Shown here: in pieces, positions 34,203-59,439 of the stretch
How positions within the stretch are numbered: the first letter of the stretch is position 1
How the letters are laid out: each line of letters opens with the position of its first letter
Assembly (NCBI GenBank): GCA_012295275.1
Contig: CM022665.1
Span: 21,635,002-21,699,001 of the forward strand
Origin: Chrysomallon squamiferum
Lineage: Eukaryota > Mollusca > Gastropoda > Neomphalida > Peltospiridae
Length of the DNA stretch: 64,000 nt
Reading direction: 5' to 3'
The notes under the pieces: generated by a model
The model's input: only the letters and a program-made list of their open reading frames with translations
What the model was told of the DNA's origin: nothing
Databases searched by the model: none
Translations under genes and position numbers: made by a program

Positions 34203-37200
34203 TCATATGATGATTCTTCCATCCTCCAAACGCACCAGAGTAGGAACGCTATTGCTTGTGGGTGACGACCGTTTCCCATCTAATGCAGCACAAAAAAGAC
34301 CCCGGATGTAGCTTTCCCTGTATTGCCATTCCTGAGCCTCTTTTTCAATACGTTGTGCCTCCTCACGCGTCGTTAAAAGTCGTTCGTCTGTTTTTTCTAA
34401 CAGATTTTCAAGATGGACAGTTCTCTTGAACAGACTGCTTAATTCTGATGTACAATCGTCTTCTTCTTCATCATCATTTTCTTCTTCTATAAATAAATAA
34501 ATAAATAAATACAAAAAAATAAATAAATAAATAAATAAATAAAAGAAAATAAAATAAATTTAAAACAGAACTTAACATAAATATAAAGTAATACTCTTTT
34601 CTTGAAAATTTTTATTATTGAAGTGTTAATGAATCTTTCATGTCTTAATAAAAATATTTCCGTATAATTTCGTACACGCATAAAATATTTCCTAATCATT
34701 TACAGAAGTAAACTTAACATTTTAAACTTTATTTTTATTTCTAATTTCTTTTTTTTTTTTCATCCAGTACATATAAAACATACTATTCCACCCGGTATAC
34801 ATTATATAAAATATATAACGTGTGTGTGTGTTTGAATATTATTCATTCCATTGACGTCAAGCTTTTAATATAAATCAGCAACATTACATATATCGTTATC
34901 AGCTGTATTATCGTTGCTGCTGTTGCTACTACTACTACTACTACCATTAGACTTAGTGATGTTCTTGTTGCTACTACTATTATTACGACTATTACTACTA
35001 CTGGTACTACTGCTAGTACTAGTTCTATAACTATTTTTTTACTACTGGTATTACAGTCACTTTTTGCTTCTAGTAACACTACTATTGCCTATGTAACAAC
35101 TACAACTGTAGTGTTAAACTACTACAATAGTGCTGTTACTATTATTACTACTACTACAACAATACTACTACTTCTACTACTACTGAAACTACTACAACTA
35201 ATACTACTATCATTACACCACTGTGACTATTACTAGTATTACTACTATCACTACTACTACAGCATGAAGATCACTTGTCCGAAATTCCATAATCCGAAAA
35301 GGTACCAAATCCGAAACAATTTCCAACCAGCAGAAACAGTGATATCTTAAACATTTTGGATTGTTTTTCATAATAATAATAATAATAATAATAATAATAA
35401 TAATAATAATAATAATAATTAAGCTATCAGTATATTAACTTTGTTTTCTTGTGAGGCGCAAGCATACAGTCAATTCTGACGTAGAGATAATAATAGACGT
35501 TGGTCACGGAAACAATAATAACAATATTTTAACGACACCTACCGGGAGACAGTAAAAATAAATTTGAGCTATTGCACAACACTGAGATAACAAAACACTT
35601 TTCATGTAAGGAAAGCCCCCAGATCCCTATGCAGCGTAGGCGCTATTAATAGATTACTTTTCGCATTTGGGAAAACCCGATTTAAAAATAAGAACGATAA
35701 ATAAAATAAAATAAATTAAAATAAAAAACAACGTTTATAAATAAATAAAAAATTACTGATGTTCAGTTAAATAGAAATAAACAAAAATAAACAACTCAAG
35801 ATGAAAACCACATTAAACGAATGGGGTATTGGTTTATAAATAATATTTATTATACACGTTAACAGATAAAATTTATTATTTTTAGGAAACTATATTTACT
35901 TTTAGTTGGTTTTTCCAAAATCCCTTTCAGTTTTAATCTATAAAACCGAAGGCAAAACATCACGTAAACATTTACTATTACTGATCGCTACAAAGACGGT
36001 TGTCAATAATAACACTAATTTTACAGTTATGAAAATGGGATTGTACAACAAACAAACGCTACTGCCAAAGGATCTTTTACGAAGACTGAACTCGATTGAC
36101 CCATGTAGCCTGGAATTCAAAATTCTTTTATTTTATGTGATGTATACAACGGGCCTTGACAGCGTTGAACGACCAAAATGTTGTGTTACCGTTTCTCAAA
36201 TACAGGGAGAGGATATGAGATGGTTTCACAGCAGTGGTTCAGGAAACCACGCAGAAGAGTTCATGGTGCAGTCATGGAAAGAATTTATAGAACAGTCTAA
36301 GAGGCATCGTGTAACCATCAGAGTTTTCCAGAATTACAGCCCGTGTGGGAAATGTTGTGACTTGATAACTGACTTTGTCAAGAAGATGAGAGACAAGGGA
36401 ATCACTGTGAAAATCAGAATAACATTTGCTGGGTTATATAAGATAAACAAGAATCTACGAAATCCTCAAGGTTATAAGAATCACTTCACTCTGGAGATGC
36501 ACCAGAAAAATGTTCGAGGTCTGCAGCGAGTAACTCAGTATATACAGCTGACTTCATTTGAAAATGACGACTGGGAGGAGTTAAAAACTTTACTGAACTT
36601 AAATGGTTATTTATATCCCATAGAATTAGATCTACGTCTTGAAAGAAAGACAACTGATATACTGAACAAAAAAATTCTGTATTCTTGTTACACACGAAAT
36701 TCAGAATACAGAAATAAACTCCAAAATAAATATATATAATGTTCAATGAATTAATTATTGCATTTATTATGCGAATTAATAATTATATTCTTTATACGAA
36801 TTAGTAATTGGATTTTTATATGAATTAGATTGTATAATAATTGTTTTCGTTACATGAATGAATAATTGTATTTATTATTTGAATTAATTATTGCATTTAC
36901 TAAGCGAATTAACACGAATTTTTTAAACGAATTAGTTATACATATCTATAGTTGTATAATTATTCTATTTGTTATATGAATGAATAACTAATTATTTATG
37001 AATAAATAATTGTATTTTTTATGTGAACGAATATATGCTATACATGAATATTTGTATTTTGTCTTGTGAAGGAATATATGGCATAAAAATTAATAATTGT
37101 ATGTCATATACATATATAATTTCATTTGTTGTAAGAATGAACAGCTGTATTAAACTCATCAATGTATAATATTTGTATTTGAGAAAAGTGTAAATAAATG

Positions 37201-40200
37201 TTATTTGTGACATATGTATTACATATGTAGTATTATAATTAGCTGATATAACTGTTGCATGAATTAATGTGTGTTTTGTAAATATGGACATAGGTCCAAT
37301 GATTTAGTTTTTCATGTTATTTAGATGTATTATTATAATTAAGTAATATAACTGTAGTCTGAATTAATGTATGTGTTATAATGAAGGACAAAGGTTTAGT
37401 TTTTCATGTTATTTAAATTATTGTCAGGTAGTTTTAGTGTTGGATATATCTAACTTGCATGTTAAACTATTTGTATATTTTCAATAAATACTCTTTTTTT
37501 CTACGTATATTTGTTATTTTTGTTGTGAAATTGTTAATAAAACAGATGCTTATGATGATAACGACAACAGCAGCAGCAGATAGTTAATATCAAAAAATAT
37601 CTAAAACGTCTAAAATTGCCTGCTTTAAGAAATCAAGATATGAACAGAATACATTAAAATGAACATAATTAGTAAAAAAGTTAAATGGCTCAGTTAAAAT
37701 GAATACAAAGTTTTCATGTGTCTTGTGTCATAATGTTACCATGGTAATCTCAGATCTATATACTCAGTACATACTGCAGTCTTTATTTAGAAAACATGAC
37801 TGGGAGGAGTTAAAAACGTAACTGAATTCGTACCTCTAAAACAAACAAACAGAAAAAAAAAAAAAAAAAAAAAAATAAAACAAATAAAAAAAAAAAAGAG
37901 AAGCAAATATAAAAAAGGAATAAAAGAATAAAAAAAATTAAAATAAATAAATAATGAAAAAAAGAGACACACTATCCAAATAAATAAATAAATAATTTAA
38001 AATAAAATAAAATAAAATAAAATAAATTTGAAACAGAACTTAACATAAATATATAGTAATTCTCTCTTCTTGAAAATTATTTTTATTATTAAAGTTTTAA
38101 TGAGTCTTTCATGTCCAAATAAAAATATTTCCGTATAATTTCGTAACATATATAAAATATTTCGTAATTATTTACAGAAGTATACGTAACATTTTAAACA
38201 TTTTTTTCATCTAGTAAATATAAAGTATACTGTTCCACGAGGTATACTTTATAATAAATATATAACGTGTGTGTGTGTGTTTACAGAATAATCACGTGTG
38301 TGTGTGTGTGTGTGTGTGTGTGTGTGTTTGTTTCAATATTATTCATTCCACTGACGTCAAGCTTTTAATATGAATCAGCAGAGTTACGTATATCTTTACC
38401 AGTTTATTATCTTTGCTGCTGCTGCTGCTGCTGCTGCTGCTACTACTACTACTACTACTACTACTACTACAATACTACTACTGATGTCGTTGCTGCTATT
38501 ACTACTATTACGACGTTTCATGTAAGGAAAGCCCTCGGATTCCGTATGCAGCGTAGCCGCTATTAATAGATTACTTTAAGCATTTGGGGAAACCCGATTT
38601 AAAAATAAGAACGATAAATAAAATAAAATAAATAAAAATAAAAAACAACGTTTATCAATTAAAAAAAAATTACTGATGTTCAGTTAAATAGAAATAAACA
38701 AAAATAAACAACTCAAGATGAAAACCACAATAAACGAATGGGGTATTGGTTTATAAATAATATTTATTACACACGTTAACAGATAAAATTTATTATTTTT
38801 AGGTAACTATATTTACTTTTAGTTGGTTTTTCCAAAATCCCTTTCAGTTTTAATCTATAAAACCGAAGGCAAAACATCACGTAAACATTTACTATTACTG
38901 ATCGCTACAAAGACGGTTGTCAATAATAACACTAATTTTACAGTTATGAAAATGGGATTGTACAACAAACAAACGCTACTGCCAAAGGATCTTTTACGAA
39001 GACTGAACTCGATTGACCCACGTAGCCCGGAATTTAAAACTCTTTTATTTCATGTGATGATTACAACGGGCCTTCACAGCGTTGAACGACCAAAATGCTG
39101 TGTTACCGTTTCTCAAATACAGGGAGATGATATGAGATGGTTTCACAGCAGTGGTTCAGGAAACCACGCAGAAGAGTTCATGGTGCAGTCATGGAAAGAA
39201 TTTATAGAACAGTCTAAGAGGCATCGTGTAACCATCAGAGTTTTCCAGAATTACAGCCCGTGTGGGAAATGTTGTGACTTGATAACTGACTTTGTCAAGA
39301 AGATGAGAGACAAGGGAATCACTGTGAATATCAAAATAACATTTGCTGGATTATATAAGATAAACAAGAATCTACGAAATCCTCAAGGTTATAAGAATCA
39401 CTTCACTCTGGAGGACCACCTGGAAAATGTTCGAGGTCTGCAGCGAGTAACTCAGAAAATACAGCTGACTTCATTTGGAAATGACGACTGGGAGGAGTTA
39501 AAAACTTTACTGAACTTAAATGATTATTTATATCCCATAGAATTAGATCTACGTCTTGAAAGAAAGATAACTGATATACTGAACAAGATAATTCTGTATT
39601 TAATTACACACGAAATATAGAAATAAACTCCAAAATAAATATATATAATGTTCAATGAATTAATTATTGCATTTATTATGCGAATTAATAATTATATTTT
39701 TTATACGAATTAGTAATTGGATTTTTATATGAATTAAATTGTATAATAATTGTTTTCGTTACATGAATGAATAATTGTATTTATTATTTGAATTAATTAT
39801 TGCATTTACTAAGCGAATTACACGAATTTTTTAAACGAATTATTTTTACATATCTATAGTTGTATAATTATTCTATTTGTTATATGAATGAATAACTAAT
39901 TATTTATGAATGAATAACTAATTATTTATGAATAAATAATTGTATTTTTTATGTGAATGAATATATGCTATACAAATGAATATTTGTATTTTGTCTTGTG
40001 AAGGAATATATGGCATAAAAATTAATAATTGTATGTCATATACATATATAATTTCATTTGTTGTAAGAATGAACAGCTGTATTAAACTCATCAATGTATA
40101 ATATTTGTATTTGAGAAAAGTGTAAATAAATGTTATTTGTGACATATGTATTACATATGTAGTATTATAATTAGCTGATATAACTGTTGCATGAATTAAT

Positions 40201-59069: not shown

Positions 59070-59099
59070 TTTTATAAGCTGAAACTGAAAGGAATTTCC
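59070..59099 (-). promoter_or_regulatory. TATA, ISRE and kappaB-like cluster upstream of deaminase copy 5
   Basis: On the minus strand, in order toward the gene: GGAATTTCC (palindromic kappaB-like, 59099-59091), TTTCAGTTTC (perfect ISRE core, 59090-59081), then TATAAAA (59076-59070), about 90 bp before the conserved ATG. The sites adjoin each other. Copies 1 and 2 keep the TATA box and a one-mismatch ISRE but lack the kappaB-like site. Confidence 0.45.
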
Positions 59100-59439
59100 A
59101 CTTCCTATAAATAGACCGGTTTGAATTTGGAAAAACCAACTCATGTCACCAGAACTAAATGTAGTTAGTTACCTGAAATAATAAATTGTATAGATTTATT
59201 GTTCTCGTTGTTAAATCGGGTTTTCCGCAGATGCTAAAAGTAATCTATTAATAACGCCTACGCTGATGGCAATCTGGGGGTTTTCCTTACATGAAAAGTG
59301 TTTTGTTATCTCAGTGTTTTTTCAATATCTCAAAGCGTTGTGCAATAGCTCAAATTTATTTTTACTGTCTTCCGGTAGCTGTTGTTAAAATATTGTTATT
59401 ATTGTTTTCGTGACCAACGTCCACTATTATCTCTACTTT

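Follow-up and report, generated by a model that had tools for sequence, protein, structure and literature searches.

An array of AID/APOBEC-like deaminase genes with a mosaic member in a gastropod genome

In a 64,000-nucleotide stretch of the genome of the gastropod Chrysomallon squamiferum (C1:21635002-21699001; the window), we found a cluster of five AID/APOBEC-like deaminase loci, c1 to c5, of which three are unbroken (c1, c2 and c4) and two broken (c3 and c5; Table 1). Judged by profile matches and predicted structures, the loci belong to the AID/APOBEC family; the catalytic residues are in place, the unbroken frames have been under long-term coding constraint, and c4 has a mosaic structure. 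We consider it probable that this is a turning-over cluster of intracellular, zinc-dependent cytosine deaminases acting in innate defence, with c4 made by gene conversion.

Family, fold and catalytic motif

Profile searches placed all five loci above the cut-offs of the AID/APOBEC group, with c5 represented by its first piece. They scored 34–39 bits for APOBEC_N (cut-off 25), 41–45 bits for SNAD4 (PF18750) and 41–43 bits for NAD1 (PF18778; cut-offs 27 for both), and the APOBEC4 and APOBEC2 profiles were likewise above cut-off. The NAD1 matches stop at position 121–122 of 175, with the SNAD4 score within 2.3 bits, and the c1 matches to both end close to a long loop described below. The profile of free cytidine and dCMP deaminases (PF00383) gave 16.5–19.4 bits in the five loci, under its cut-off of 25, and the bacterial families PF14440 and PF14424, the only further deaminase families outside the AID/APOBEC group in the profile listing, gave 12.7–15.6 bits, under cut-offs of 27 and 29.6. 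The predicted structures have the AID/APOBEC fold as modelled, and in both fold searches made with them the 50 matches listed were all AID/APOBEC, with no other deaminase fold among them; an earlier model, built on only five rows of near relatives, was dropped (predicted local distance difference test, pLDDT, 52). The initial annotation had assigned the loci to this family, and profiles, predicted fold and the Pfam label of two relatives (below) back it; nothing in the profile search put them clearly among the tRNA adenosine or free cytidine deaminases.

All five loci were found where they had first been annotated, each carrying HAE-x(28)-PCxxC and ITFAGLY, and the former motif recurs in a relative on contig C15; it falls within the zinc and catalytic motif given for the superfamily, H[AVS]E-x(24-36)-PCxxC (PMC5956068). 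The tail motifs GLQRV, IQLTSF and DDWEELK are exact in c1, c2 and c3 and take variant forms in c4 (GLQKL, MWLTSF and NDWRELK); the second, out-of-frame piece of c5 has GLQRV and IQLTSF with the variant DDWYELK. From the start codons annotated initially, the frames run over 234, 222, 21, 246 and 153 codons in c1 to c5, and these starts needed revision: the c1 and c2 frames each begin one in-frame ATG ahead of the annotated 36035 and 38952, and 43434 and 58980 open only the short frames of c3 and c5. In c3, one base inserted near the start, by comparison with c1, shifts the frame, and the locus is probably a pseudogene or truncated form; in c5, a one-base gap breaks the frame. The description of the genes as intronless holds for the coding frame; c1, c2 and c4 are each a single open frame of 222–246 codons.

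Genome-wide searches covered the whole assembly, whose 22 contigs (fifteen of 16.7–49.2 Mb and seven of 10.8–39.8 kb) add up to 404,604,130 bases. With c1 as query, seven matches fell on six loci, namely the five in the window (the other loci against c1, E 1e-133 to 1e-65; c5 tail, 8e-31) and the C15 locus (L013/L007), an unbroken B-type relative of c4 with 52% identity to c1 and an open frame of 239 aa. A search with the NAD1 family also gave seven matches, consisting of these six loci and a divergent open frame on contig C12 (L001, C12:11242928-11243368; 47.7 bits), whose frame 1387–2067 is open over 227 codons and in which, as read by eye on the translation, other residues stand in place of the histidine, the glutamate and the two zinc cysteines; it is possibly a catalytically dead paralogue with the AID/APOBEC fold. 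Two further relatives, P0001 and P0002, came from a profile search in which scoring was limited to the best 8,000 candidates. They derive from a 382-kb ENA contig, on which both appear to lie, have 43–47% and 42–44% identity to c1, respectively, and bear the label PF18785, an invertebrate AID/APOBEC family of Pfam. As a genome query, P0002 gave eight matches at seven loci, C12 being weak (E 0.004). In a homologue search with one sequence, no hit at E 0.001 came out of 166 candidates; a search with a second profile gave nothing beyond P0001 and P0002.

The stretch from strand 4 (FAGLY) to the GL of helix 4 is 26 residues long in all seven sequences counted (c1 to c4, C15, P0001 and P0002; the frame of c5 breaks inside it), compared with 13 in C12 and about 9 in APOBEC3F. 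It is conserved, with the pattern P.G.K.HF....H..N, and has low confidence in the structure model. The loop after strand 4 corresponds to loop 7 of the APOBEC3s, where loops 7 and 1 are reported to set sequence preference (PMC6073885), and by analogy the 26-residue loop may alter specificity.

Mosaic structure and duplication

We compared c4 with its relatives at 143 informative sites, where c1, c2 and c3 agree and differ from C15 and c4 agrees with one side. Within a central tract that holds the catalytic motif and the long loop, c4 was c1-like at 51 of 63 sites, compared with 12 of 80 outside it (0 of 20,000 permutations as extreme); third codon positions alone gave 20 of 22 and 4 of 39, respectively (again 0 of 20,000). 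The synonymous divergence (dS) between c1 and c4 is 1.54 in the N part, 0.13 in the core and saturated in the C part, and that between c4 and C15 is 0.15, 0.34 and 0.80 in the same order, in agreement with the site comparison (Fisher, 9.8e-10). Synonymous constraint as the only cause of the low core divergence was rejected, as the c4–C15 dS is higher in the core than in the N part, the opposite of c1–c4. In rooted protein trees, the ends put c4 with C15 (support 96). The comparison thus points to c4 as a mosaic formed by gene conversion, in which an A-type core was moved into a B-type gene. The C15 core is also nearer to c1 (dS 0.29) than are the C15 ends (1.43 or saturated), a sign that an earlier exchange may have taken place there as well. 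In c5, 17 positions in columns 60–79, just before HAE, differ from the state shared by c1, c2 and c3, nine matching c4/C15 and eight neither; this is suggestive, no more, of a patch of the c4/C15 type.

The blocks around c1, c2 and c3 extend about 0.2–0.4 kb before and 0.7–0.8 kb after the coding frames, and the genes have therefore spread through segmental duplication. An array of retrocopies was rejected for the same reason, the flanks on both sides being included; the single-exon ancestor itself may have had an older retro-origin. The c1 and c2 blocks agree with the compact, actively duplicating array proposed initially; as two of the five copies are broken, the array is better described as birth-and-death.

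The unbroken frames differ at many sites and contain no stops, at 161 of 639 differing sites between c4 and C15 and 225 of 690 between c1 and c4. Under simulated unconstrained change, stop-free frames were kept in 74 and 131 of 20,000 runs per branch for the former pair and in 5 and 7 of 20,000 for the latter. In these comparisons, coding constraint appears over the longer term only. The whole-length ratio of nonsynonymous to synonymous divergence (dN/dS) is 0.58–0.69 in the remaining A–B pairs.

Proposed function and its alternatives

Under the defence reading, each unbroken enzyme would bind single-stranded DNA or RNA through its zinc-site loops, including the unusually long one after strand 4, and would turn C into U in nucleic acid of foreign or transposon origin, making the genes candidate antiviral or anti-transposon mutators. 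The cluster would evolve as segments are duplicated, copies are lost to frameshifts and genes convert one another, conversion having carried the A-type catalytic core into c4. We infer activity, substrate, cell location and defence role, the last being the likeliest reading by analogy with relatives. Read by eye, the N-termini of c1 and c4 begin with polar and charged residues and show no apparent signal peptide, whereas the SNADs are described as secreted (PMC11004436); the SNAD4 and NAD1 profiles are the best or near-best in Pfam for these loci.

Two sea urchin enzymes and one Lingula enzyme were reported in 2018 to be mutators in E. coli (PMC5956068), and the initial view of such invertebrate clades as little characterised is to that extent outdated; in the same study, expression of AIDL genes was highest in digestive tissue. 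The snail genes resemble its SpAIDL1-9 (Strongylocentrotus purpuratus) and LaAIDL1-2 (Lingula anatina) in being invertebrate, AID/APOBEC-like and of the form HxE..PCxxC. SpAIDL1/4a have 193–194 residues, and the urchin family is a small multigene one with five of nine loci frameshifted in the reference (PMC5956068). Compared by published description, the snail genes differ in being gastropod, in their 26-residue loop, which P0001 and P0002 share, and in the mosaic c4; LaAIDL1, unlike them, has two tandem domains (PMC5956068). For Aplysia, another paper lists three APOBEC3-like genes (PMC9334734). The snail cluster also seems to parallel the mammalian APOBEC3 immune gene cluster, with gene expansion, conversion or chimeric genes and the same fold; gene conversion is reported for that cluster, A3G being a chimera (PMC2625395). 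The A3 genes are vertebrate and multi-exon (PMC2625395), whereas c1, c2 and c4 have single open frames, and no common origin of the two clusters is implied. A literature search of limited reach, aimed only in small part at Chrysomallon, found these snail genes named nowhere. The key comparative survey is reportedly that of Krishnan et al. 2018 (PNAS).

Several observations weigh against the defence reading, which draws on relatives, sequence and models. No sequence-only match to solved APOBECs reached significance, c1 giving a best E of 0.044, and solved APOBECs searched with the wider profile gave a best E of 0.024 and with the five-row profile none at E 1. The whole-length dN/dS is 0.60–1.44 in six A-type pairs (c5 through its first piece), exceeding 1 in five of them, and 0.91 between c4 and C15, and recent constraint is therefore weak; two of the five copies are broken. 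The rooted protein tree of the core joins c4 to c1–c3 with moderate support of 76, and the unrooted DNA tree of the core separates c4 and C15 from c1–c3 (85), on a split branch of 0.04 compared with 1.14 for the ends; that tree would fit conversion only if the root sits on the C15 branch. No hypermutation mark was seen in c1 and c2, where C-to-T changes are not in excess (7 C>T and G>A, 16 T>C and A>G and 20 transversions among 43 polarised changes). Several other sea urchin paralogues were inactive in bacterial assays (PMC5956068).

The last point would also suit proteins that have the AID/APOBEC fold without mutating foreign DNA, and act in site-specific RNA editing or catalysis-free binding as discussed for APOBEC2 and APOBEC4, whose profiles all five loci match above cut-off; the C12 relative, with its catalytic residues lost and its frame open, would point the same way. 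We think this unlikely, though worth keeping in mind, as HAE and PCxxC are kept in all six loci of the window and C15 and lie in the exchanged core. The two frameshifts and the dN/dS of about 1 in most young pairs would also fit a decaying array, in which a gene that was once useful has left recent copies that for the most part drift, no more than C15 or a single window copy being in use. Neutral change almost always yields stops, however, and three window copies and C15 have kept open frames with as many as 225 of 690 sites differing, which makes general decay decidedly improbable. An origin among the common deaminases of tRNA adenosine, dCMP or free cytidine would fit the shared zinc motif and the PF00383 scores, but these scores stay under the cut-off in every locus and the listed fold matches all point elsewhere, so that this origin is already disfavoured to the point of being hardly credible.

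A more speculative and rather doubtful extension is that the catalytic core and the long, specificity-type loop form a cassette. Copied by conversion between genes with far-diverged ends (dS about 1.5 or saturated), it would give new combinations of catalysis with ends that affect targeting, partners or stability. All of this would take place within a single germline array that alternates with the exons of a DED/TRADD-N death-adaptor gene or lies inside that gene. AID starts conversion at antigen-receptor loci, and the deaminases might start the conversion themselves.

Added beyond prior work are an array in a gastropod, a member with a mosaic core, the common long loop, the dead-looking C12 and the DED/TRADD-N neighbour. 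Only a few invertebrate enzymes have been tested so far to learn if mutator immunity is older than the vertebrates, and the array would show that gene birth, gene death and core exchange of the APOBEC3 kind arose in an animal lineage far removed. The three unbroken copies, the converted core, the apparently dead C12 and the unusual loop make a natural set for mapping substrate choice. The host, if Chrysomallon, also carries intracellular symbionts.

Neighbouring genes and upstream motifs

Table 1. Deaminase loci, duplicated and converted tracts, upstream motifs and neighbouring exons in the window
Feature	Position	Strand	Basis or remark
c1, unbroken single-exon AID/APOBEC-like deaminase, A-type, 236 aa	36029–36739	+	open reading frame (ORF), profile, structure model
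c2, unbroken, A-type, 224 aa, 90–92% identity to c1	38946–39620	+	ORF, profile
c3, domain frame open, no ATG before 43540	43438–44172	+	ORF
c4, unbroken, 246 aa, mosaic with A-type core between B-type ends	52440–53180	-	ORF, profile, site comparison
c5 first piece, HAE, SPCxxC and ITFAGLY, then frameshift	58519–58980	-	ORF, profile
c5 second piece, tail in a different frame	58280–58546	-	ORF, c1 match
Putative converted tract in c4 (HAE, PCxxC, strand 4, long loop, helix 4, strand 5), like c1–c3	52605–52973	-	site comparison
c1 counterpart of the c4 tract (donor type)	36227–36595	+	site comparison
Duplicated block around c1	35597–37524	+	95.3% identical over 1,954 bp to c2 block 38513–40457
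c3 block	43231–44895	+	88–89% to c1 and c2 blocks
TATAAAA upstream of c1	35939–35945	+	begins 90 bases before ATG
TATAAAA upstream of c2	38856–38862	+	
TATAAAA upstream of c3	43351–43357	+	
TATAAAA upstream of c5	59070–59076	-	
DED/TRADD-N gene between c3 and c4, predicted exon 1	47508–47625	-	
DED/TRADD-N gene, predicted exon 2 (remainder of DED)	46877–47095	-	spliced DED score
DED/TRADD-N gene, predicted exon 3 (TRADD-N)	45830–46114	-	NCOA6_TRADD-N score
DED/TRADD-N gene, possible terminal exon	34203–34486	-	phase-compatible splice site and stop

The initial annotation had called the genes TATA-driven. A candidate TATAAAA begins 83–96 bases upstream of c1, c2, c3 and c5, but none was found within 250 bases upstream of c4, and the motif is common, occurring 83 times in 128 kb (both strands). 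Upstream of c5, at 59081–59099 on the minus strand, GGAAATTCC is followed directly by TTTCAGTTTC and then by TATAAAA. We take GGAAATTCC to be kappa-B-like and TTTCAGTTTC to be ISRE-like (interferon-stimulated response element); the adjoining c5 is frameshifted. The former occurs once in 128 kb (both strands) and a loose form of the latter 14 times, and the arrangement was not found as such upstream of c1 to c4.

Between c3 and c4, three predicted exons on the minus strand join in phase into a DED/TRADD-N gene. The spliced DED scores 60–62 bits (cut-off 35.9), and NCOA6_TRADD-N scores 23.9 bits as a single frame (cut-off 22.5) and 21.4–21.6 bits, slightly under the cut-off, when spliced. No domain support was found for the join to the possible terminal exon, with which c1 to c3 may lie inside the last intron of this gene, on the opposite strand. 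TRADD-N proteins that carry DEDs are described as having multiplied in a number of marine invertebrates and as linked to immunity; for molluscs other than bivalves, the same source gives only the NCOA6 ortholog of the TRADD-N clade and lists DEDD2 orthologs in molluscs (PMC8195603).

Elsewhere in the window, an open frame of 329 codons and ordinary composition at 61984–62970 (plus) had no Pfam match at E 1. Exons of the short-chain dehydrogenase type (SDR; adh_short_C2) at 33003–33272 (plus) and 22856–23110 (minus) scored 50 and 45 bits and are probably the ends of two such genes on opposite strands.

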